39,208 bases of DNA, taken from IMG/VR virus record IMGVR_UViG_3300046665_000162, positions 1 through 39,208 of that record; one strand, 5' to 3'. The position numbers and the translations under genes are program-made. Positions 5,808-36,736 of the stretch are shown here, one piece after another (the stretch's first letter is position 1; each line of letters begins with the position of its first letter). The stretch comes from a virus. The notes under the pieces are model-generated. The model worked only from the letters and a program-made list of their open reading frames with translations, was not told the origin of the DNA and ran no database searches.

Positions 5808-6097
5808 GGTTTGTCCTTTGCAAGTTCAGTGCGCAGCAGGAAAATCGAATCGCTTATGTGGTTGCCGCCGAAAATCCTTCCGACCGCATCGCCATGGACG
5901 GTCTTGAAAATGCTGTACATGCCCAGTTCGTCTTTACTGCTGCCGTAGACGGACGGCATGATGTTGCGCGGGCCGATGTATGCGAAGAACTGTTCTTTGC
6001 TGACCTCTGTCATGGTCGGGCTGGCAGCAAGCGCGAGTTCGGTTAGCTTCTGTGTGCCGGGCTTTCGTGGCGCTTCAAATAACGGAAGCGTGCTCAT
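5804..6097 (-). CDS. Hypothetical early protein (97 aa)
   Basis: The product is unrecognised. It begins MSTLPLFEAPRKPGT and has a central region rich in Phe, Gly and Tyr (EQFFAYIGPRNIMPSVYGSS) and no membrane segment. It is joined to its neighbours by ATGA overlaps on both sides, which is the main evidence that it is translated. Confidence 0.65.
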   Translation of the reverse strand: MSTLPLFEAPRKPGTQKLTELALAASPTMTEVSKEQFFAYIGPRNIMPSVYGSSKDELGMYSIFKTVHGDAVGRIFGGNHISDSIFLLRTELAKDKP

Positions 6098-6543
6098 ATC
6101 GTCCTCACTTGTTCGATTGCTTCGCCAAACAGGTCGCCGACAGCGAGCCGGGAGCGCCGCGTCTGGCGTGCTGTCTCGGCATGGTGCTCAGCGTCATAGG
6201 CAAGGTGGCAGCGCTGACATAGCGCCTTCAGGTTGTCGTCGTCGCAGTGCTCAGGAACATGGTCAAGATGTGCGATCGTCAACACAATGCGCGTCCATCG
6301 GTTGCCGCAGTATTCCGACGCCTTGCAGCGGCCAAGCAACCGCCCGTCGTCCGCTGCATAAACCTCGCCGTCGCCTTCGAAGCGCTGGAAAGTGCCCGCG
6401 TCTTTGTCGATACCGCGCACGATCATGTCGCCGTTCGCGACGCGGCATTGCTCGCAGCAGTCACCGGCCCGCTTGAGAATCCGCGTGCGAATCTCTTTCC
6501 AGTTCGACGGATAGCGGGCCTTGTTTTCCGGTTTGATTGGCAT
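6094..6543 (-). CDS. HNH endonuclease-family protein
   Basis: The 149-residue protein carries a zinc-containing HNH fold: paired Cys30/Cys33 near the N-terminus, and a C-terminal core with His92, Asp94, His95 (IAHLDH), Asn104 and Cys109/Cys112/His113 (LCQRCH). Such proteins cut or nick DNA. In many phages an HNH protein sits beside the terminase and assists packaging, but this one lies in the early recombination operon, so a role in recombination, repair or host DNA attack is also possible. Catalytic residues look complete. Confidence 0.85.
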   Translation of the reverse strand: MPIKPENKARYPSNWKEIRTRILKRAGDCCEQCRVANGDMIVRGIDKDAGTFQRFEGDGEVYAADDGRLLGRCKASEYCGNRWTRIVLTIAHLDHVPEHCDDDNLKALCQRCHLAYDAEHHAETARQTRRSRLAVGDLFGEAIEQVRTI

Positions 6544-6609
6544 GGGGCATCACTCATTGTTCGATTGCTTCGCGCGCTGCGCGGATGGGGTTGGGCTTTG
6601 GTTTAGATG

Positions 6610-25549: not shown

Positions 25550-25888
25550 ATGCCATACGAAAAATTCCCGATGTGGACGCATAAGCAGGGCGAGAAATCG
25601 CGCGTCGTCCATACGCAGGAAGAATTTGATGCACTCGGCGAAGGCTGGTCGGACCATCAGCACGTCCCGCCGAAAGTGCATGTCGATGCTGACACGTTCC
25701 AGCATTACCCGAAGTGGGTAGGCGACAAGCTCGTGCACAGCGCCGAGGAAGAAGCCGCGCTTGCGCCGTCCGAGCCCGAGCAGAACGACGAGCGCGCCGC
25801 GCTGCTCCAGATCGCCGACGAGCGCGGCGTGAAGGTCGACAAGCGCTGGTCGAATGACAAGATTCGCGCGGCTCTGGAGGCAGTGTGA
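25550..25888 (+). CDS. Head-tail region protein with HeH/SAP-like C-terminus (112 aa)
   Basis: The N-terminal part (MPYEKFPMWTHKQGEKSRVVHTQEEFDALGEGW) is followed by an acidic linker and a C-terminal helix-extended-helix-like segment (ERAALLQIADERGVKVDKRW then KIRAALEAV). Such C-termini bind DNA or cap proteins in several phage head genes. The position between coat and gp4-like gene fits a head-completion or DNA-binding accessory role. GGAG precedes the start. Confidence 0.7.
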   Translation: MPYEKFPMWTHKQGEKSRVVHTQEEFDALGEGWSDHQHVPPKVHVDADTFQHYPKWVGDKLVHSAEEEAALAPSEPEQNDERAALLQIADERGVKVDKRWSNDKIRAALEAV

Positions 25889-26604
25889 CTACGGGAACTG
25901 ATCTGATCACGCTGGCGCTGAAGGACATCGGCGCGTTGGGTATCGGGCAGGCTGTCTCTGCTGAAGATACGGCCGATGCGCTGGCCACGCTGAACATGAT
26001 GCTCGGCCAGTGGGATGCTGAGCGCCTGAGCGTCTATCACCTGGTCGATACGGCGCATCAGGCGAACGGATCAGTTTCCTACACGGTCGGCCTAGGCGGC
26101 GACTTCAACGTCACGCGGCCGATCAAGATCAACGCCGCCTATGCGCGCCTGCAAAGCAGCGGCGCCGGCAGCGCGGTCGATTACCGGATCTCGATGATCG
26201 ACGCGCGCGAAGACTATTCGCGCATCAGCCTCAAAACGCTGTCGTCGTTCCCTGAGTGGGCGTTCTACGACTCGGCCTATCCGCTTGGCACCCTGTTTCT
26301 GTACCCGGTCCCGAACAGCAGCTACGAGCTGCACATCGTGACGATGGAGACGCTGCCGCAGCTTGCGACGGCCGGAACATCAGTCAACCTGCCGCCGCCG
26401 TATCTGGCCGCGCTGCGCTACAACCTCGCGATCTACCTGTGCCCGTCCTATCAGCTTGAGCCGACGCCGTCACTGGTGCGCCTCGCGATGAACGCCAAGC
26501 GCGTGATCAAACGGATGAACACGCAGATTCCGCAACTGACGATGCCGCGCGGTCTGATGTCGAAATCCCGCTACAACATCTACAGCGACAATTCGAGCAA
26601 CTGA
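25885..26604 (+). CDS. P22 gp4-like tail accessory factor
   Basis: This 239-residue protein matches the P22 tail accessory factor superfamily: N-terminal ITLALKDIGALGIGQAVSAEDTADALATLNMMLGQWDAERL, a beta-rich centre, and a C-terminal helical region ending in Arg/Lys-rich helices. It binds the portal after packaging and seals the head. It is larger than P22 gp4 (166 aa) because of an extra C-terminal part. The start is GTG in a GTGA overlap. No lytic activity motif is evident. Confidence 0.88.
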   Translation: MTTGTDLITLALKDIGALGIGQAVSAEDTADALATLNMMLGQWDAERLSVYHLVDTAHQANGSVSYTVGLGGDFNVTRPIKINAAYARLQSSGAGSAVDYRISMIDAREDYSRISLKTLSSFPEWAFYDSAYPLGTLFLYPVPNSSYELHIVTMETLPQLATAGTSVNLPPPYLAALRYNLAIYLCPSYQLEPTPSLVRLAMNAKRVIKRMNTQIPQLTMPRGLMSKSRYNIYSDNSSN

Positions 26605-28028
26605 TGCGCATCCCGCTCACATCCGGCGCGTACCAGACGCGCAGCGTTATTGCTGAAGCGCAGCGCAGTGTGAACCTGTACGCCGAAGCTAATCCTCAGG
26701 ATGCGCCGTGCCCGTTCACCTACTATCCGACACCGGGCCTGACGCTCGTTTCGACGCCGCCAGGTGAGGGTGAATGCCGCGCGATCTATACCGCGAGCAA
26801 CGGTAATCGCTATGACGTGGTCGGGCAGAGCGTGTATTCGGTCAGTGCCACGAACGCCTATACCGCGCTTGGGCTGCTCACCTCGACGGGTGGGCCTGTC
26901 TCGATGGTCGACAACGGTACCGATGTATTTATCGTCGACGGCACTGTGAACGGGTTCACGATCGATCTGGAGACCAATGTCATGTCTCCCGTTTCCGATC
27001 CGGCGTTCTATGGTGCTGACAAGGTCGATCTGGTGGATGGGTATTTCCTGTTCAACCGGCCCGGCACACCGCAGTTCTACATTTCCCTGTTCGACGGGAT
27101 CACGTTCGACCCGCTCGACATTGCATCGAAATCGACCTATTCCGACAACCTCGTGACCCTGGCCGTCATGCACCGGGAAATCTGGCTGTTCGGCGAACTC
27201 ACAACTGAGGTTTGGTACAACACCGGCGCCTCAGACTTCACCTTTGGCCGCATGCCGGGCGTGTTCATCGAGCATGGCTGCGCGGCCAAGCATTCGGTCG
27301 CGAAGATCGATCTCGCGCTGTTCTGGCTCGGGCAGGATCTGCAAGGGCAGAACGTGGTATTCGCCGGCCGAAACTACATCGCCGAGCGGATTTCGACACA
27401 TTCGATCGAGCAGGCGCTGGCCGGCTATTCGCGCGTTGACGATGCAATCGGCTTCTCATACCAGCAGGGCGGCCACGCCTTCTATGTGCTGACGTTCCCG
27501 ACCGCGAATGCGACATGGTGCTTCGATGTGGTGACCGCGCAATGGCATCAGCGCGCATATCTGGAAGCCGATGGCACACTCAGCCGCCACCGCATGAACT
27601 GCCATTCGTTCAATGCGGGCCGCAATCTGGTTGGCGACTGGCAGACGGGTAACGTCTATGCGCTCGACCCGAATGCCTACACCGATAACGGGACGACGAT
27701 CGAATACATCCGGGCATTCCCGCACATCCTGGGCAGCGACGGCAACCGCGTGATGTTCCGCCAGTTCATCGCAGACATGGAAGTCGGCAACGGGCTGCCT
27801 GACGACTCCGATTCACCTGAAATCCGGCTTCGCTGGAGCGATGACCGGGGCCGAAGCTGGGGGAACTGGATTCAGGGATCACTCGGCAAGCTTGGCGAAT
27901 ACCTGACCTCAATCCAGTTCCAGCGACTCGGCTATTCGCGTGATCGTGTGTTTGAGCTGTCGTGGTCAGCGCCGGTCAAGACTGCGCTCAACGGCGCGTG
28001 GGTTGATGTTTCGAGGTCGCGCACGTGA
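26604..28028 (+). CDS. P22 gp10-like packaged-DNA stabilisation protein (tail hub)
   Basis: The 474-residue protein starts MRIPLTSGAYQTRSVIAEAQRSVNLYAE, a highly typical N-terminus of gp10-like proteins, and has repeated beta-propeller-like strands such as ISLFDGITFDPLDIASK and EIWLFGELTTEVWYNTG. It forms the hub that attaches to gp4 and holds the tailspikes. Length agrees with P22 gp10 (472 aa). Confidence 0.92.
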   Translation: MRIPLTSGAYQTRSVIAEAQRSVNLYAEANPQDAPCPFTYYPTPGLTLVSTPPGEGECRAIYTASNGNRYDVVGQSVYSVSATNAYTALGLLTSTGGPVSMVDNGTDVFIVDGTVNGFTIDLETNVMSPVSDPAFYGADKVDLVDGYFLFNRPGTPQFYISLFDGITFDPLDIASKSTYSDNLVTLAVMHREIWLFGELTTEVWYNTGASDFTFGRMPGVFIEHGCAAKHSVAKIDLALFWLGQDLQGQNVVFAGRNYIAERISTHSIEQALAGYSRVDDAIGFSYQQGGHAFYVLTFPTANATWCFDVVTAQWHQRAYLEADGTLSRHRMNCHSFNAGRNLVGDWQTGNVYALDPNAYTDNGTTIEYIRAFPHILGSDGNRVMFRQFIADMEVGNGLPDDSDSPEIRLRWSDDRGRSWGNWIQGSLGKLGEYLTSIQFQRLGYSRDRVFELSWSAPVKTALNGAWVDVSRSRT

Positions 28029-28534
28029 GCGACGCGACCAACAGCAACATCCCGAATCCCGGGGTTCCGTTCCTCGATTCGAGCGGGCGCATTACGCAGG
28101 TCTGGTGGGCTTTTCTGCTCGCGATCTTCCAGCGGACAGGCGGCAGCGGGACGCCGACGCCGCCGACGCAGATCGACTATTCGCCGCTGATCGACGCTCA
28201 GGCACCATATCCGCCCGCTGCGATCGATCCGTATGGCGTCGCGCTGGCGCCGGTGGCTGCGCCGCAAATTGTGTTCGATGCGCCGCCGGATGCCGTGGCC
28301 GCTCCGTATATCCCGGCCGACCCGATCGAGGACATTTTCACCGCTGGCACCGACTTTACGCCGGGCACGACGGTGAGCCTGGCGCTTTCGAAGGTCTATG
28401 CGTCTGCGCCTGCAGTTCTCGTGCATTTCGATGGCACGTTTCAGGCAACGGACCAGTACAGCGTTTCCGGCAACACGATCACTTTCACGTCGGCCATTCC
28501 GGTTGGGGTGTCCAAAGTCTATGCGCGAGGCTAA
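28025..28534 (+). CDS. Tail protein with beta module shared with the tailspike
   Basis: The 169-residue protein has an N-terminal segment NIPNPGVPFLDSSGRITQVWWAFLLAIFQRTGG, a Pro/Ala-rich linker, and a C-terminal module (about 105-169) whose pattern FTAGTDFTPG...VHFDGT.QATDQY...TITFTSAIPVGV closely matches residues about 98-165 of the tailspike. It occupies the P22 needle (gp26) slot but lacks a long coiled coil, so it is not a typical needle. A hub-to-spike adaptor is plausible. Confidence 0.75.
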   Translation: MSDATNSNIPNPGVPFLDSSGRITQVWWAFLLAIFQRTGGSGTPTPPTQIDYSPLIDAQAPYPPAAIDPYGVALAPVAAPQIVFDAPPDAVAAPYIPADPIEDIFTAGTDFTPGTTVSLALSKVYASAPAVLVHFDGTFQATDQYSVSGNTITFTSAIPVGVSKVYARG

Positions 28535-28537
28535 AGC

Positions 28538-28870
28538 ATGACGACCAAATATCGCGAAATGGTGGCGGCCCAGACGCTGACTGCCAGCGCAGTTTCGTAT
28601 TACACGACGCCGGGCGGCACATATGGTGCGATCCACGCCGGCAGCATCTGCAACCCGACCGGCGCCGTCGTCACGGTGAATATATACAAGGTGCCGAGCG
28701 GCAACACGGCCGGCTCGCCCACGAAGATCGCCAGCAAATCTGTTGGCGCGGGCGCGACGATCGCAGTCCCGGAACTGGTGAACCACAAGATGGAGCCGGC
28801 CACGCAGATTTATGCCGATGGTCTCGCCTGCACGCTGAATATCAGCGGTATCGAATACGTCCCGAGCTAA
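28538..28870 (+). CDS. Small beta-rich structural protein (110 aa)
   Basis: The product (KYREMVAAQTLTASAVSYYTTPGGTYGAIHAGS, later VTVNIYKVPSG and CTLNISGIEYVPS) consists of short beta strands with Gly/Thr turns and resembles small virion or fibre-associated beta-sandwich proteins. No catalytic pattern is visible. It follows the tail-module gene by three bases and is followed by the hydroxylase. Confidence 0.7.
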   Translation: MTTKYREMVAAQTLTASAVSYYTTPGGTYGAIHAGSICNPTGAVVTVNIYKVPSGNTAGSPTKIASKSVGAGATIAVPELVNHKMEPATQIYADGLACTLNISGIEYVPS

Positions 28871-28873
28871 ACA

Positions 28874-29455
28874 TTGAAAAACTTCCATTTCCTCGCTACT
28901 GGCGTTGACGTCAATCCGCTGATGCTCGCGATCCGCCGCCGTCCGGACCTGTGGAAGGAGGACACGTTTCTCCGCCACTACCCGCAAGGCCCGTTTGGCG
29001 AAACCGAAACGATCATGCTGCGCTTTCCCGAGAAGGTCGCTGGCCTGACGGAAGAGCAGATTGAGCTTTACAAGCAGAACCAGCTTGCCGGATACGACCA
29101 GTACGAGGCGATCGACTATCCCGCCTACAAGGTGCTGCACGAAGCGCGACCGCTCGTGATGAACCTGATGGCGCGCGTGCAGGGCGAGCGTCTTGGCCGC
29201 GTGATGATTAACAAGGTATGCCCGGGTGGCCGTATCTTCGCGCATGCCGACACGCCCGAGCAGACGCGCTACTACACGCGCTTTCACGTGGTGCTGCACG
29301 GCCTGCCGGGCGCGGTCCTGAAGGCCGGCGACGAGCAGATCAACATGCTGACGGGCGAGTGTTTCTGGTTCGACAACAGCCAGATCCACGAAGTCATCAA
29401 TAACAGCGCCGACGAACGCGTTTCGATGGTCGTCGATATCAGGACTTCGCGATGA
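28874..29455 (+). CDS. Aspartyl/asparaginyl beta-hydroxylase family protein
   Basis: This 193-residue protein fits the Fe(II)/2-oxoglutarate-dependent Asp/Asn hydroxylase family. His124-x-Asp126 (FAHADTPEQ) and His172 (SQIHEV) would bind iron, with Arg136/His138 (TRFHVVLHG) and Arg182 near the C-terminus as likely co-substrate contacts. Such enzymes hydroxylate side chains of proteins. TTG at 28874 is preferred because it supplies the family N-terminus (FHFLATGVDVNPL). It overlaps the acetyltransferase gene by four bases, so the two form a unit. Its substrate may be a virion or host protein. Confidence 0.88.
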   Translation: MKNFHFLATGVDVNPLMLAIRRRPDLWKEDTFLRHYPQGPFGETETIMLRFPEKVAGLTEEQIELYKQNQLAGYDQYEAIDYPAYKVLHEARPLVMNLMARVQGERLGRVMINKVCPGGRIFAHADTPEQTRYYTRFHVVLHGLPGAVLKAGDEQINMLTGECFWFDNSQIHEVINNSADERVSMVVDIRTSR

Positions 29456-29910
29456 TTACTTTCACCATCGAGCCGTTTTCGAGCGTCTATGCTGAGTTGC
29501 TGCCACTCCTTCAGGCGCACTACGGTGAAATCTCGACCCACAAGGACCACGGCGTACCGCTCGAGCCGGTTGTCGAGGTCTACCGCGCGCGCGAACTCGA
29601 CGGCTCGCTGATGATGACGATCGGCCGCGAACGAGGCGAAATAGTCGCCTATTTCGTGTGCTTCATTGCACCGGGTCTGCATTACCGCTCGTGCCTAACA
29701 TGCTCGCCTGACATTTTCTTCGTGCGCGAAGACAAGCGCACGGGGATCGCCGGCGTCAGGATGTTCCGCTTCGTTGAAAAAGAACTACGCCGCCGTGGTG
29801 TGAAGCGATGGGCGGTCGGCAGCAAGGTTCAGCACGACGCGTCGGCTCTGTTCAAGTTTCTCGACTTCGAGCCTGTCGAGACGACCTTCGAAAAATGGCT
29901 GGAGGATTAA
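29452..29910 (+). CDS. GNAT-family N-acetyltransferase
   Basis: The 152-residue protein has the GNAT order: an N-terminal helix, LMMTIGRERGEIVAYFVCFI (strand 2-3 region), SPDIFFVREDKRTGIAGVRMFRFVEKELRRRGV (strand 4, acetyl-CoA-binding loop with R-x-x-G-x-A-like RTGIAG, and helix 3), and a C-terminal FKFLDFEPVETTFEKWL. It transfers acetyl from acetyl-CoA to an amine of a protein or small molecule. Similar proteins are found in podophage tail blocks. ATGA overlap couples it to the hydroxylase. Confidence 0.88.
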   Translation: MITFTIEPFSSVYAELLPLLQAHYGEISTHKDHGVPLEPVVEVYRARELDGSLMMTIGRERGEIVAYFVCFIAPGLHYRSCLTCSPDIFFVREDKRTGIAGVRMFRFVEKELRRRGVKRWAVGSKVQHDASALFKFLDFEPVETTFEKWLED

Positions 29911-29913
29911 ATC

Positions 29914-30663
29914 ATGGTCGCAGCAGCAATTGTTGGCGCAGCAGCCGTCGGGGCGGTCGGCTCGACCGTGGCTGCAGGTGCTTCAAAGAGCGCGGCAAAC
30001 ACGCAAGCTCAGGCGGCGGAAGATGCTGCGCACCTCCAGAACGATCAATGGAACCAGACACAGGCCAATCTCGCGCCGTACATGAATCTCGGCACGAGCA
30101 ACATCAATGCGCTTCAGACCGCGCTGACGAACCCGATGTTGACGAAGCAGTTCACGGCGCCGAGCGAGGGTGATGCATATGCATCGCCGGGCTACCAGTT
30201 CACCCTGAATCAGGGGCTGAAGTCGGTCCAGAATAGCGCCGCTGCGCGCGGTTTAGGTGTGTCCGGTGCTGCGCTGAAGGGCGCGGCGAGTTACACGACT
30301 GGCCTTGCTGACTCGACCTACAACGATGTATTCAATCGCGCGCTACAGACGTTCAACACGAATTACAGCAGCGCCGCGAACAATGTGAACCGTCTGCAAA
30401 GCGTGGTCGGAAACGGACAGAATGCGGCCGCGACAAACGGGTCGCTCGGCGCTACCGCAGTCGGCAATATCGGTAACACGCTCACGAGTGGCGCGAATGC
30501 ACAGGCGGCCGGCACTGTCGGTAGTGCAAATGCGCTCGCGAGCGGTCTAAATGGCGTCGGCAACAGTGCGCTCACATATGGCCTGATGACGAACAACGCA
30601 GGCGCCGCCGCGCCGGCCAGTGCGGCGGCTGCGGGCAGCAATCAGTACGGCTTCACGATCTAG
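29914..30663 (+). CDS. Ejection protein candidate (P22 gp7 slot)
   Basis: The 249-residue product starts with a hydrophobic Ala/Gly/Val segment (AAAIVGAAAVGAVGSTVAAG), contains Gln/Asn-rich helical regions (QNDQWNQTQANLAPYMNLGTSNINAL) and a Gly/Ala/Asn-rich C-terminus. Such membrane-active, low-complexity proteins are found among podophage ejection proteins. Position before the gp20- and gp16-like genes supports the call. Sequence similarity to P22 gp7 itself cannot be judged by eye. Confidence 0.7.
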   Translation: MVAAAIVGAAAVGAVGSTVAAGASKSAANTQAQAAEDAAHLQNDQWNQTQANLAPYMNLGTSNINALQTALTNPMLTKQFTAPSEGDAYASPGYQFTLNQGLKSVQNSAAARGLGVSGAALKGAASYTTGLADSTYNDVFNRALQTFNTNYSSAANNVNRLQSVVGNGQNAAATNGSLGATAVGNIGNTLTSGANAQAAGTVGSANALASGLNGVGNSALTYGLMTNNAGAAAPASAAAAGSNQYGFTI

Positions 30664-30671
30664 GAAAAAAC

Positions 30672-32114
30672 ATGCCAATCGATCCGAGCATTGCTCTGAA
30701 TGCGAACGCGCCGAAGCCAATCAATCCGCTGCAACAGGCGCTGTCAGTCGCTCAGTTCCGCGCGCTCAATGCCAGCGGCCTCGCGCAGCAACAGCAGCTC
30801 GACGCGAACCGCGCCACGTCTGCGGCATATCAGCAGGCCACCGATCCGACAACCGGCCAGGTCGACAACAACAAGCTGGTCGGCATCCTGAGCCAGGATC
30901 CCGCTGCAGCGTACAACCTGCCCCAGGTGATTCAGGGAATCAACACGCAGAAGCAGCAGCAGCAGACGTTGCAGACTGGCCAGCTTGATCAGTCGATCAA
31001 GGCGCAAAGCAGTCTGCGCCAAGGGCTTGGTAGCCTGCTGACGAAGCCCGACCTGTCGCCGCAGGACGTGCAGGGATTCGCCACGACGCAATTGCAGGCC
31101 GGCGCGATCACGCCTCAGGTGTATCAGGCTGAAATGCAATCGATGCCACAGGATCCGCAGGGGTTGCGCGGATGGGTGCAGCAACACTATATGTCGGCGC
31201 TCAGCGGCGAGACGCAGTTGCACGCGATGCTCCCGCAGTATGCGCAGGTCAACACCGGTCCAGCCACGGTTGCCGTCAACCAGAACCCGCTGGCGGCCGG
31301 TGGCGGCGTCGGCACGGTCGGCTATACGGTCCAGAATGGCTTATCGCCGTCGGATGCCGCGACGCCGGTCACGGTCAACCAGAACGGCCAGCCGACGATG
31401 ATCCCGAAGGCGCAATTCGCCGCCGGCGGCCAGCCTGGGCAGACGCCCGGTGCGCTTCCCGGTGGTGGATTCTCTGCGGCACCGCCCATCGGCGCCGACA
31501 AGGTGGCGAGCGATGCCGCCGCACGCTACAGCTCACTGCAATCCGCCGCCGCGCAGGCGAAACCGCTGATGCAGACATACGATCTGGCCGCGCAGAACAT
31601 CCAGGGCACGCTCACCGGCAAGGGTGCGAATTCCGCACTCAATGTACCGGCGATCCTGAACACGTTTGGTATTCAGGCTGGATCGGATGCCGTCAAGAAC
31701 AATCAGTTGCTCGTTCAATACCTGAACAGCGCGGCAGATCAGGCGGCGGCGTCGCTCGGCCTCTCGGGCAGCGATTCGCGCCTCGCCGCGGCAAAGGCCG
31801 GCCAGCCCGATCCGCACAACATGAACGCGCCGGCGCTGCTCGAATCGATCCAGCATGTGAAGGGCTTGCAGCAGGCCGTGCTTGACCGTCAGCAGGCGAC
31901 CACAAATTTCCTTTCGTCGAATGGCAACAACACCGGCACGCTGCCGCAGTTCGAATCGAAGTGGAATCAGTCGTTCAACCCGGATGTTTCCTATATTCGC
32001 TCGCTCAGCAGCCCGCAGGAACAGCAGGCCGCCATACAGAAACTGAAGTCTGACGGCAAGCTCCAGCAATGGACGAAGGACTATCAGGCCATGAAGGCGC
32101 TCGGGGCATTCTGA
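30672..32114 (+). CDS. Ejection protein candidate (P22 gp20 slot)
   Basis: This 480-residue protein is rich in Gln, Ala and Asn with an N-terminal QQALSVAQFRALNASGLAQQQQ helical region and further Gln-rich helices (QKQQQQTLQTGQLDQ). The C-terminal third is helical (LLVQYLNSAADQAAASLGLSG, then QAVLDRQQATTNFLSSNG). Composition, size and order agree with P22 gp20-like internal proteins that leave the head during DNA injection. No enzymatic motif is seen. Confidence 0.72.
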   Translation: MPIDPSIALNANAPKPINPLQQALSVAQFRALNASGLAQQQQLDANRATSAAYQQATDPTTGQVDNNKLVGILSQDPAAAYNLPQVIQGINTQKQQQQTLQTGQLDQSIKAQSSLRQGLGSLLTKPDLSPQDVQGFATTQLQAGAITPQVYQAEMQSMPQDPQGLRGWVQQHYMSALSGETQLHAMLPQYAQVNTGPATVAVNQNPLAAGGGVGTVGYTVQNGLSPSDAATPVTVNQNGQPTMIPKAQFAAGGQPGQTPGALPGGGFSAAPPIGADKVASDAAARYSSLQSAAAQAKPLMQTYDLAAQNIQGTLTGKGANSALNVPAILNTFGIQAGSDAVKNNQLLVQYLNSAADQAAASLGLSGSDSRLAAAKAGQPDPHNMNAPALLESIQHVKGLQQAVLDRQQATTNFLSSNGNNTGTLPQFESKWNQSFNPDVSYIRSLSSPQEQQAAIQKLKSDGKLQQWTKDYQAMKALGAF

Positions 32115-34453
32115 TGCCAGATATCCAGGGGTTCATCCAGCAATACGCGCCGGTCGCAGCCAGTGTCAGCCAGCGGATCGGCGTCGCGCCTGATGTATTG
32201 CTCGGGCAATGGGGTCTTGAAACCGGGTGGGGGAAGTCGGTCGTCCCTGGCACGAACAATCTCGGCAACATCAAAGGGCCGGGCGTCGCCGCGACGGATA
32301 ACCAGACCGGCTCGAATGACCAGTACCGAGCGTATGCGAGCCCGCAGGCCTTCGGCAACGACTTCGCGAACCTGATCAGCAGCAACTACAAGGGTGCCGT
32401 TGGCGCGGGTTCTGACGCGTCCGCATATGGCAAAGCGCTGAAGGCTGGTGGCTATGCCGAAGACTCTGGCTACGCGAACAAGCTGGCCGGCGCGGTGGGA
32501 ATGGTGAGGAAATTCGGGGACTCGATTGCATCCGCTCTGTCTGGCTCGGCGAACGCTGCCGAACTCAGCCCGCAGCAGATGAGCGCGCCCGTTATCTCGG
32601 CTACTGGACAACAGATCATGCCGCAAGCAAAACCGCAGTCCGCGCCGGCCGCATCAGCGCCGCCGGCATCAACAGGCGATCCCTTGCTGGATATGGCGAA
32701 TTCAGTCCAATCAGGCTCGGGCACCCCTTCTGCCGCTGCTACGCCGCCGTCAGTTTCGCCAAATAGCACGTCAACCGCTGACGATCCGCTGCTTGCGATG
32801 GCGAATAGCGTGATGAGCGGAAAGGCCGCTGCGCCCGCTGCCGTGACGCCACCCACAGCAACGCAGCCTACTATCAACAGCCAGCCGTGGCAGGCACCAG
32901 GCTCAGTCACCATGGGTATCGGTGATGCGATCAAGGGCGGCGTCCAATCGCTCGCGCATGGTGGCGCATGGCTCGCGAACAAAATCGCTCCCGACGCTCA
33001 GTTCACGAAAGACCTCAACACCGCGCTTCCCCAGATCGACCAGACTATCCAGTCGCAGGATGCTCAATATGCGGCGCAGCGTGCGGCGGCCGGCGGGAAT
33101 GGAATCGACATCGGCCGTGGAGTAGGCAACGCAATTGGCTCTATCCCGCTTGCAGCAGCAATGCCGGCCGGTAGCGGCGTATTGGGCGGTATCGGTGCGG
33201 GCGCATTGTCTGGAGTCGCTAATAGCCTACTGGAGCCCGTGACTGATACATCCAGAAGCTATGCGAGCCAGAAACTGCAGCAGGCCGGCACAGGGGCTGC
33301 AGTTGGCGGTATTGCCAATCCGCTTATGCGTGCCGTCGGTGCAGCCGTATCGCCCGCTGTGGGAGCCGCGCAGCAACGTCTTATTGATGCAGGCGTGCCA
33401 TTGACGCCGGGGCAGATCTTGGGGGGTGCTGCAGCGCGGACCGAGGCTAAGCTGACTAGCGTTCCATTCGTCGGCGACATGATCAAGAATGGACAGCAAC
33501 GCGCCGTACAGGGTTTCAACAAGGCCACTTATAACGAAGTCCTTGCGCCGCTCGGGCAGACGTACAGCGGCCCTGTCGGCAATGATGGCGTCGCTGCCGT
33601 ACAGAAGACAATCAGCACCGCATACGACGACGCGCTATCGAAACTCACGTTCAAGGCTGACCCGCAGTTCCAGTCCGACCTTGGCAACCTGGCGACGATG
33701 GCGCAAAACCTTCCCGCTCCACAACAAAGCCAGTTCACGAACGTCCTGAAAAATCAGGTATTCGGGAAACTGTCGCCTCAGGGAGAGATGGATGGCCCAA
33801 CGTTGAAAGGTGTGCAGAGCGAACTTAGCCGTATCTCCCGAGGGCTCACAGGTGATCCATCGTTTGACAACCAGCAACTTGGTCAAGCGATCGGCGAGGT
33901 GAAAAATATCGTGGAGCAGTCGCTTCCGCGTAATAACGCAGCCGACGCCGTCAAGGACCTCGCAAATGCCAATGCGGCCTATGCCAACTTCGTGCGCCTG
34001 CGCGCGGCGGCCGGATCACAAGGCGCGATGAACAACGAGGGAATTTTCACGGCTGCGCAGCTCAATAACGCTGTACGAGGGGCTGACAAATCAGCAGGGA
34101 AGGGCGCGACTGCTACGGGCAACGCGCTTATGCAGGACTTCTCAAGCGCAGGTCAACAGGTTCTTGGATCGAAATACCCGGATTCCGGGACGCCCGGCCG
34201 TGCATTGGCCGCGATGATGGGCCCTGCCGCCTTGGGTCAGGTAATGGCTCCGGCTTACACAGCACCGCTTGCTGCCGCAATGGGAGTCGGGGCGCTCCCT
34301 TATACCGCAATGGGTCAAAAGATCGCACAGGCTCTACTTACCGCGCGCCCTGGGTTTGCGGTCCCAGTAGGGAATGCGCTTACCAAGTATGGGGTCCCAC
34401 TCGCCGCGCCGGCGGGCAATGCTCTCGTCAATGCGATCACACGTTCGCAGTAA
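32114..34453 (+). CDS. Large ejection protein with N-terminal glucosaminidase domain (P22 gp16 slot)
   Basis: At 779 residues this is the biggest late gene product. Residues about 1-140 resemble a FlgJ/LYZ2 glucosaminidase: SQRIGVAPDVLLGQWGLETGWG with probable catalytic Glu36, then TNNLGNIKG and DQYRAYASPQAFGNDF. It would locally open peptidoglycan during DNA entry. A Pro/Ser/Ala linker with repeated DPLLxMANSV motifs (residues about 195-235) follows, then a long helical and Gly/Ala-rich region with membrane-interacting potential (AIGSIPLAAAMPAGSGVLGGIGAG). ATG at 32114 overlaps the previous stop as TGATG. Confidence 0.82.
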   Translation: MPDIQGFIQQYAPVAASVSQRIGVAPDVLLGQWGLETGWGKSVVPGTNNLGNIKGPGVAATDNQTGSNDQYRAYASPQAFGNDFANLISSNYKGAVGAGSDASAYGKALKAGGYAEDSGYANKLAGAVGMVRKFGDSIASALSGSANAAELSPQQMSAPVISATGQQIMPQAKPQSAPAASAPPASTGDPLLDMANSVQSGSGTPSAAATPPSVSPNSTSTADDPLLAMANSVMSGKAAAPAAVTPPTATQPTINSQPWQAPGSVTMGIGDAIKGGVQSLAHGGAWLANKIAPDAQFTKDLNTALPQIDQTIQSQDAQYAAQRAAAGGNGIDIGRGVGNAIGSIPLAAAMPAGSGVLGGIGAGALSGVANSLLEPVTDTSRSYASQKLQQAGTGAAVGGIANPLMRAVGAAVSPAVGAAQQRLIDAGVPLTPGQILGGAAARTEAKLTSVPFVGDMIKNGQQRAVQGFNKATYNEVLAPLGQTYSGPVGNDGVAAVQKTISTAYDDALSKLTFKADPQFQSDLGNLATMAQNLPAPQQSQFTNVLKNQVFGKLSPQGEMDGPTLKGVQSELSRISRGLTGDPSFDNQQLGQAIGEVKNIVEQSLPRNNAADAVKDLANANAAYANFVRLRAAAGSQGAMNNEGIFTAAQLNNAVRGADKSAGKGATATGNALMQDFSSAGQQVLGSKYPDSGTPGRALAAMMGPAALGQVMAPAYTAPLAAAMGVGALPYTAMGQKIAQALLTARPGFAVPVGNALTKYGVPLAAPAGNALVNAITRSQ

Positions 34454-34618: not shown

Positions 34619-36736
34619 ATGCAAATCCTGCCGAATGCCAAAAGTCAGTTTATCGACCAGAACGGGCTACCTCTTGCGAGCGGCTCAGTCGGCTTTTATT
34701 TTCCGGGAACGCTGAACCCGAAAGCGACGTTTCAGGATCCCGCCGGCACGATCGCAAACACGAACCCGGTGCTGCTCGATAGCCGCGGGCAGGCGCTTAT
34801 CTGGGGCTCGGGGGTGTATCGCCAGATCGTCAAGGATGCCGCTGGCGTCACGATCTGGGATCAGATCACCGAAGACCCGAATTCGGCGCTCACCGGCAAT
34901 ATCACCGATGTTCGCTTTGTGGCCGGCACGGATTTCACGCCGGGTGTGTCGACGCAATTGACGTTGCCGGTTACGCCGGGGTCGATCTCGAACATGTGGG
35001 TTTTCTTCGACGCGTCGTATCAGGCAGATGACCAGATCCAGTCTCTGGATGGCGCGACGATCAACTTCGTGTCACCGATCCCGGTCGGCGTTCAGGAAGT
35101 CAACGTGAAGGTCGGTACGACAATCGCGATCGGCACGCCCGGCGACGGCACCGTTGGCGACAAGCAGCTCGCATGGGGTCCGCCGCTGCGTCGCAATTTC
35201 TCGTCGATCGCGCTGCTGCGCGCTGTCAACAATGCGAACTATGTCAGCGCCTATGTTGAAGGCTATTACGCACCGTCAGACGGCGGCGGCGGCAGTTACG
35301 ACGTCAGTTCGACCGACACGACGTCTGCAGACAATGGCGGCTCGATCATCGTCGACACGCTTGGACGTCGCTGGCATCTGAACCAGGCGAGCCCACTGCG
35401 GCTGCGCCAGTTCGGCGCGAAGGGCGACTGGGTTGTGTCGACCGCGACCGGCACCGACGACAGCACGGCATTCAACAATGCGGTCGCCGCGGCGCAGGCC
35501 TCCCTTAACCAGACACTTTTCATCGACGCGGGTAACTTCTATCTACCGAGTGCGGGAACGATGACAGGGCGTCTGTTCCTGAAAGGCAATAGCGATGGAA
35601 TGCTCGTCGGCAACCTGCTGTATCAGGACTTGTTTTTCCCGCCGTCGGCGGACACGGCCACGCCGCTGACCAACGTCGCGCCGTTCTTCTATGTCGAAGG
35701 CGTCAACTTCAGCACCTACGGCACCAGCACAGGCGCTTTCGCGCTGACGGTGGCCGCTCAGGTAGCGACCTCGTTTATCGACTGTTTCGAGATGAAAAGC
35801 GCCCGCTTCTATGGCCTTAATGGGCTGCTCGCACAAAACATTATTTCGGTGACGATCGATAACTGCTGGTTCTATTCGAACATCAACGGCGTCATCGCGA
35901 GCGGCTGCACGAACTGGAGCGTCTCCAATACCCGGTTTCGGCAACAGGTCGGATTCGGATTCGCGCAAAACCTGTATTCGGTCAATCCGGCCCGAGAGGG
36001 AGGAGAAAATGTCCGCTTTGTCAACTGCGAGTGGACAGTCTGCGCAACAGGCGTGCTGCTCCAGCAAAGCCAGTGGGCGCGCTTCGTCAACTGCCTGTTC
36101 GACTACTGCAACCTGCCGATTAATGTCGATGGGTCGAAATACGTTCGCTGCATCAACACCTATTTCGGCGTCTCGATCCAGTCGAGCCTCACGACGAACC
36201 CGAACTACATTGCGCCGCCGGTATCAGGTTGCGCTTTCTATGCGCATGGCCATGACGATACGAACCTGTTCGACGCGGGTATCGACTGCGTGGAATGCGA
36301 GTTCGTGACGTACGTCGGCACATCACAGCCGCTCGTGACATGCGAGGGTGCAAGCAGCGCATTCCCGAGTAGCTACGGACTGAGCTTCGCCAACTTCACG
36401 AACTGCCTGTTTCTGGCGACGACGTCGCACACAATGCCGTCGATGCTGCTCATCGATAAATGCCAGATCGTGCGCATGTCCAACAATATTTTCTGGTCGT
36501 TCAACCAGTCCACGTCGATGACTGGTCCTTACAACATCAGCAACGTCACCTCCTACCAGATCACCGGGACAGAGACGCTTCTGTGCCAACAGTCAAGCGT
36601 TCAGATGCAGCCGACCAACGAGAAGGCTTCGTTCAATGAGATCGACGTCTATTACGGCTCGTTGCTGAAATCAGTTCAGTACGGCGCGGCCGACAGCGGA
36701 GGCTCCGGTTTCCGCACGCTTCGAATCACCAACTAA
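34619..36736 (+). CDS. Tailspike with beta-helix (pectate-lyase-like) fold
   Basis: The 705-residue spike has an N-terminal attachment module (LPNAKSQFIDQNGLPLASGSVGFYFPG to about residue 90), a beta module (about 98-165) shared with the protein at 28025-28534, a linker, and from about residue 260 (LRLRQFGAKGDWV...DDSTAFNNAV) a right-handed parallel beta-helix with repeated Asn/Cys ladders. Tailspikes of this kind bind and often cut O-antigen or capsule, setting host range. No catalytic residues could be assigned. GAGG precedes the start. Confidence 0.87.
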   Translation: MQILPNAKSQFIDQNGLPLASGSVGFYFPGTLNPKATFQDPAGTIANTNPVLLDSRGQALIWGSGVYRQIVKDAAGVTIWDQITEDPNSALTGNITDVRFVAGTDFTPGVSTQLTLPVTPGSISNMWVFFDASYQADDQIQSLDGATINFVSPIPVGVQEVNVKVGTTIAIGTPGDGTVGDKQLAWGPPLRRNFSSIALLRAVNNANYVSAYVEGYYAPSDGGGGSYDVSSTDTTSADNGGSIIVDTLGRRWHLNQASPLRLRQFGAKGDWVVSTATGTDDSTAFNNAVAAAQASLNQTLFIDAGNFYLPSAGTMTGRLFLKGNSDGMLVGNLLYQDLFFPPSADTATPLTNVAPFFYVEGVNFSTYGTSTGAFALTVAAQVATSFIDCFEMKSARFYGLNGLLAQNIISVTIDNCWFYSNINGVIASGCTNWSVSNTRFRQQVGFGFAQNLYSVNPAREGGENVRFVNCEWTVCATGVLLQQSQWARFVNCLFDYCNLPINVDGSKYVRCINTYFGVSIQSSLTTNPNYIAPPVSGCAFYAHGHDDTNLFDAGIDCVECEFVTYVGTSQPLVTCEGASSAFPSSYGLSFANFTNCLFLATTSHTMPSMLLIDKCQIVRMSNNIFWSFNQSTSMTGPYNISNVTSYQITGTETLLCQQSSVQMQPTNEKASFNEIDVYYGSLLKSVQYGAADSGGSGFRTLRITN

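Follow-up and report, generated by a model that had tools for sequence, protein, structure and literature searches.

A coupled hydroxylase and acetyltransferase gene pair beside the ejection genes of short-tailed phages

Small genes beside the ejection genes of short-tailed phages

In phage P22, gene 14 sits between the needle gene 26 and the ejection gene 7, and in T7 the same place, before gene 14, is occupied by gene 13. P22 gp14 is annotated as a head morphogenesis protein and T7 gp13 as a probable scaffold or internal protein, and our literature search found no clear account of the molecular role of either. The GNAT pc40 of cobaviruses/SIO1 has been proposed as the counterpart of T7 gp13 (PMC6775973), the T7-like Pseudomonas phage vB_PaeM-G11 encodes a GNAT acetyltransferase between its gp12- and gp14-like genes (PMC10142737), and YA3 ORF13 (DUF2833) has been named an acetyltransferase (PMC7326022). 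In the phiKMV-like phages, the gene for the GNAT Rac (LUZ19 gp28) lies at the margin of the structural genes, with the phage RNA polymerase gene on one side and the portal gene on the other, and Rac causes cleavage of the alpha subunit of the host RNA polymerase (PMC7552054). In Limnohabitans phage DC33, ORF8 has been assigned as an Asp/Asn beta-hydroxylase and counted among the auxiliary genes, and a pairing with a GNAT does not appear to be noted there (PMC12195039). The DC33 record (PQ492659.1) gives the family as Inoviridae, although the phage is tailed, has a genome of 39 kb and carries terL, a portal gene and internal virion genes like those of T7.

We analysed a stretch of viral DNA of 39,208 nucleotides (IMG/VR record IMGVR_UViG_3300046665_000162, hereafter the window), in which a hydroxylase gene is followed by a GNAT gene within a block of P22-type virion genes, all on a single strand and separated by overlaps or short gaps (Table 1). 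The neighbours were those claimed in a preliminary description of the window, with the head closure gene and small fibre-like genes upstream and the ejection gene directly downstream, beginning 3 bases past the GNAT. The gene that precedes the pair, coding for 110 amino acids, was also found in three relatives upstream of cupin- and GNAT-type proteins occupying the same slot. No PHROG or Pfam match was obtained for the second internal protein. Separately, a 116-residue module, 40% identical, was shared between the product of the gene in the needle position and the N-terminal portion of the large tail fibre (34619-36736), suggesting that one adaptor or docking domain serves in both proteins.

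Table 1. Positions of the hydroxylase-GNAT pair and neighbouring virion genes in the window
Feature	Positions	Strand	Basis
Head-tail adaptor Ad3 (P22 gp4)	25885..26604	+	phrog_12985 8.5e-45, phrog_637 2.3e-12
Head closure Hc3 (P22 gp10)	26604..28028	+	phrog_578 8.3e-117
Tail-fibre-like protein, P22 gene 26 (needle) position	28025..28534	+	phrog_18673 1.8e-5
110-aa gene before the slot	28538..28870	+	phrog_20100 1.6e-5
Fe(II)/2-oxoglutarate hydroxylase, PF05118 (predicted)	28874..29455	+	193 aa, TTG start; H124, D126, H172 (iron), R182 (2OG)
ATGA stop/start overlap, translational coupling	29452..29455	+	shared by the hydroxylase and GNAT ORFs
GNAT acetyltransferase (predicted)	29452..29910	+	152 aa, ATG start; PHROG_1249 5.8e-9, predicted GNAT fold
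P22 gp7-type DNA ejection protein	29914..30663	+	phrog_598 3.1e-32
Second internal/ejection protein (P22 gp20 position)	30672..32114	+	position; kept behind the ejection gene in relatives
Third internal protein, glucosaminidase/lysin domain (P22 gp16 / T7 gp16 position)	32069..34453	+	PF01832 9.4e-20, phrog_3513 1.5e-37

The place of the pair was nearly fixed in the window lineage. Among window-type loci with room downstream, the P22-gp7-type ejection gene came directly after the GNAT in 140 of 140, and insertion at random places in related phages, which the preliminary description had offered as grounds for doubting its proposal, was not seen in this lineage. Seven loci kept the order adaptor, hydroxylase, GNAT and ejection gene with the head closure gene relocated to a place behind the ejection genes; the swapped order given for one of the seven, L070, arises only because its GNAT ORF was extended upstream. 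Similarly, the adaptor and head closure genes were rearranged in Pseudomonas phage PfAn1, and the pair still adjoined internal virion genes. In ctXG1253-type phages (L003, positions 5998-6552, and L101), a hydroxylase without a GNAT of the window family adjoined an ejection gene that belongs to a PHROG other than that of the window (phrog_21132), apparently as a separate arrival at the same place.

In DC33-type phages, the pair was flanked by terL and portal, at a distance from the genes for the internal proteins, and judging by gene sizes and order, the junction between their tail-tube and internal-protein genes had no gene in the place of T7 gene 13. The unit can thus act from another position, and neighbourhood alone does not name its substrate. 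Modification of phage DNA bases by an oxygenase and an acyltransferase during packaging was considered; the pair adjoins either terL or ejection genes, and phage DNA hypermodification systems include both enzyme classes. We regard this as very improbable, as the two genes are late structural cistrons and not genes of a replication module, and the hydroxylase family PF05118 is not known to belong to the TET/JBP or AlkB groups used on DNA.

Coupling, conservation and active sites of the two genes

The reported four-base overlap of the hydroxylase and GNAT ORFs was confirmed as ATGA, and a 4-base NTGA overlap was present in 141 of 188 loci carrying both genes. When near-identical copies were removed and enough flank was required, 108 hydroxylase loci were left, in 101 of which the GNAT was the next gene (it was absent from that place in 7); part of the loci had been gathered by GNAT similarity and most by the hydroxylase. 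The two genes form a coupled late unit, as first described, with a coupling much stronger than was first claimed. Identity within the families of the pair went down to about 31% for the hydroxylase and 26% for the GNAT, so the pairing does not merely reflect recent common descent. Relatives had a median dN/dS against the window copy of 0.05 (hydroxylase) and 0.06 (GNAT), lower than those of head closure (0.07) and the ejection protein (0.11), and both genes of the pair are thus under strong purifying selection. Given these values and its recurrence in about 190 loci, the arrangement is not due to chance.

A scan that used only the hydroxylase and a broader one that used four aligned sequences found matches in soil and Burkholderiales phages, and in prophages on Achromobacter, Paraburkholderia, Acinetobacter, Rhodanobacter and Sphingomonas contigs. 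In the scan of genome contigs, the single-protein query retrieved 0 loci and the alignment query 12. Isolated phages carrying the pair were Pseudomonas PfAn1 and Limnohabitans DC33.

The hydroxylase matched PF05118 (Asp_Arg_Hydrox) at 6.4e-14, with 52.5 bits against a Pfam cut-off of 22.6, and the match was confined to the C-terminal half of the protein. Its iron ligands, correctly named in the preliminary description, were intact, with the HxD...H triad kept in 197 of 197 aligned relatives and the 2OG-type arginine R182 in 196 of 196. Relatives had start codons at the same position (ATG in 132, TTG in 17 and GTG in 9), which makes the TTG start of the window gene plausible. A 485-aa open frame on the opposite strand (27932-29389, - strand) crosses the gene and probably just reflects the high G+C content. 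The nearest solved relatives included L-proline cis-4-hydroxylase (9e-9), proline 3-hydroxylase (1e-6) and AspH (3e-5), and the score against the LpxO model was far under its cut-off (13.2 of 500 bits). Since enzymes acting on free proline are among these relatives, "Asp/Asn" is to be taken as a family label for the putative hydroxylase and not as its predicted substrate.

For the GNAT, the match to PF00583 was under the Pfam cut-off (0.12) in the window copy and reached 1.3e-7 in relatives, in addition to the match to the PHROG named "acetyltransferase" given in Table 1. The AlphaFold model (pLDDT 95.6) had a full GNAT fold, and its best PDB match was a solved GNAT (Z 16.3, rmsd 2.6 over 143 residues). 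H23, E26, Y67, H77, Y78, D87, R96 and K125 were kept in 191 of 191 relatives. In the acetyl-CoA loop, Q/RxxGxG/A, R96 was invariant and the last position (G101/A) was kept in 190 of 191, whereas just 12 of 191 had the middle glycine, which makes the loop somewhat divergent. The hydroxylase and the GNAT are functional and probably catalytic genes.

The rarity of the middle glycine could also mean that the GNAT, along with its gp13/gp14-type relatives, mainly chaperones the ejection protein during assembly, with catalysis secondary and the hydroxylase alone modifying its target, a role that would suit the annotations of T7 gp13 and P22 gp14 at the same position. A pure scaffold would not need invariant or nearly invariant R96, G101/A, H77, Y78, D87 and K125 across relatives at 26% identity, however, and the slot is also taken by cupin and cupin-SET proteins, as described below. 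We therefore hold a mainly chaperoning GNAT to be improbable.

A small-molecule route, in which the hydroxylase would act on a free amino acid such as proline or another metabolite and the GNAT would acetylate the product, is in line with the two proline hydroxylases being closest among solved structures. It is also in line with the structural matches of the GNAT, in which aminoglycoside and polyamine acetyltransferases tied on top Z with RimI-type enzymes, so that protein and small-molecule acetyltransferases were not separable by this comparison. The position in the virion block is fixed and tied to the ejection gene, however, and each enzyme was also found at the same place without its partner, unlike the steps of a single metabolic route. 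We consider this route quite unlikely.

Proteins found upstream of the ejection gene

Independently of the pair, 79 loci were gathered by the ejection protein and the genes just upstream of it were classed. A hydroxylase, GNAT-type, cupin, cupin-SET or gp14-like protein occupied the slot in 64 of the 79. The hydroxylase was found with the GNAT in 10 loci, with a cupin-type protein instead of the GNAT in 3, and alone in 1, and the window-family GNAT was alone in 10. The others held a cupin alone (25), a cupin-SET fusion (9), another GNAT (3) or another GNAT-like protein (3), leaving 15 with none of the families sought. One locus counted as hydroxylase with GNAT (L316) also matched the gp14-like query. 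Some of the 15 proved to carry GNAT-type proteins as well: L331 matched phrog_1249 at 4e-7, and L309, from a phage related to that of the window, matched phrog_651, the P22 gp14 family, at 1.1e-4. The hydroxylase and GNAT occurred together in 10 loci, against 3.5 expected if each were distributed independently at its own frequency (14 and 20 of 79), a comparison that ignores relatedness among the loci. When the slot families were sought outside the slot, no match was found in the 2131 ORFs of the census loci, a confinement which for the cupin and SET proteins is partly by construction, since those queries were seeded from the slot.

The SET proteins retained the RFINHS..PN and GDELLVDY motifs and matched PF00856 at up to 8e-12. 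In four relatives of the window phage, L326 (5066-5941), L332 (2283-3131), L370 (4290-5147) and L327 (4993-5667), cupin-SET fusions with intact SET catalytic motifs lay directly upstream of the ejection gene; phage-encoded SET methyltransferases within a virion block looked unusual to us. Small proteins of L313 (5525-5992), L319 (4753-5199) and L340 (2234-2575) carry the PHROG name "tail fiber adhesin/short tail fiber" (24280, 12032). They look like Cupin_2 proteins with conserved histidines and not like fibres, and would be candidate enzymes. Beside the hydroxylase, a cupin-type protein stood in for the GNAT in L297, L368 and L371.

In relatives, the pair is thus replaced by other modification-type proteins at a nearly fixed position before the ejection gene. 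It might still be a late host-targeting unit, modifying the host RNA polymerase, ribosome, envelope or a protease, in which case its location would reflect late expression only. The effect of Rac on the host RNA polymerase from the edge of a structural block, and a pair that also works from the terL-portal position in DC33-type phages, speak for such a role. Rac is not encoded at this place, however, and a free gene would not be expected to stay beside the ejection gene in all 140 loci and through rearrangements, nor would other modification-type proteins be expected to substitute for it at exactly the same place. We rate host targeting as rather unlikely. A virion-directed role is favoured, mainly because different protein-modification-type enzymes replace one another at one place.

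Candidate substrates and comparison with known systems

We estimate a probability of roughly 50% that the pair is a late unit which modifies, or chaperones, virion proteins, probably those of the ejection module. As a single translationally coupled unit, the two enzymes would modify phage-made virion proteins during assembly, and the most likely target would be an ejection-module protein from the next cistrons (gp7-, gp20- or gp16-like), or else a nearby tail protein. The GNAT, in the place of P22 gp14 and T7 gp13, may acetylate an N-terminus or a lysine, or may chaperone the ejection protein. The hydroxylase would be an optional partner that uses Fe(II), O2 and 2-oxoglutarate to hydroxylate a residue, either in that same protein or in one next to it. 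We infer virion proteins as the targets, and likewise the residues that would be hit and a target common to both enzymes.

Alignment columns were compared between hydroxylase-bearing and hydroxylase-free phages. In the gp7-type ejection protein, no clear hydroxylase-specific Asp, Asn, Pro, Lys or His column was found, N195 showing a modest difference (0.83 vs 0.51). In small and related samples, P53 of the 110-aa protein was at 0.83 in hydroxylase-bearing and 0.38 in hydroxylase-free phages, and D4, P159 and N203 of the second internal protein differed moderately. The preliminary description had interpreted the pair as enzymes for virion proteins or late host targets; its coupled late unit and conserved place hold, while virion substrates are not established by the present data, as the DC33-type location, an ejection protein without a hydroxylase-specific residue and the free-proline hydroxylase relatives count against them. 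The finding is real, and modification of the virion remains a plausible interpretation of it.

GNATs beside internal virion genes have already been published and likened to T7 gp13 (PMC6775973), so the expression "new kind" of virion maturation was too strong for the GNAT half. The coupling to a hydroxylase and the enzyme-swapping slot appear to be new: we found no report of the pair, or of its replacement by SET or cupin proteins at this place, in a literature search that covered few subscription journals. On a wider and more tentative reading, which we think doubtful as a whole, short-tailed phages would have a virion-finishing slot with an interchangeable hydroxylase, acetyltransferase, SET methyltransferase or cupin, including P22 gp14 and T7 gp13, whose occupants would covalently modify ejection proteins for packaging, folding or envelope crossing. 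The arrangement suggests that the infection machinery may be chemically finished by the phages themselves. If P22 gp14, T7 gp13 and the hydroxylase-GNAT unit belong to one functional slot of modification enzymes, its role would become testable by mass spectrometry of virions. Phages would then be seen to finish their ejection machinery covalently, and the slot would yield small Fe/2OG hydroxylases, GNATs and SET enzymes that are new and whose protein substrates are tied to them genetically.

Compared to P22 gp14 (PF11039/DUF2824, phrog_651), the window GNAT occupies the same slot directly before the first ejection gene and is of nearly the same length (152 vs 151 amino acids), and the ejection proteins that follow, P22 gp7 and that of the window, belong to the same PHROG (phrog_598). 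The top 50 PDB matches of the P22 gp14 AlphaFold model were all GNAT-type (prob 1.00), which is only suggestive since the model is weak (pLDDT 46.8). The window GNAT had no Pfam match to PF11090 or PF11039, and with hhalign its signal against the shallow profiles of T7 gp13 and P22 gp14 was not above controls. It shares with T7 gp13 (PF11090) and the cobavirus GNAT its small size and a gene position between those for the tail tube and the internal virion proteins, and differs from them in having a hydroxylase partner, none being reported for those systems. Rac, too, is a GNAT encoded by a phage at the margin of its late structural genes, while the window GNAT lies between head closure and the ejection gene and not in the Rac-type position. 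With AspH, cis-proline-4-hydroxylase, proline 3-hydroxylase and LpxO of the PF05118 superfamily, the hydroxylase has in common an above-cut-off family match and the HxD...H...R active site; AspH joins a TPR region to its oxygenase, whereas the window hydroxylase is a single 193-aa domain protein without TPR. DC33 carries the same pair with the same 4-base overlap as the window, and differs from it in the location of the pair between terL and portal.
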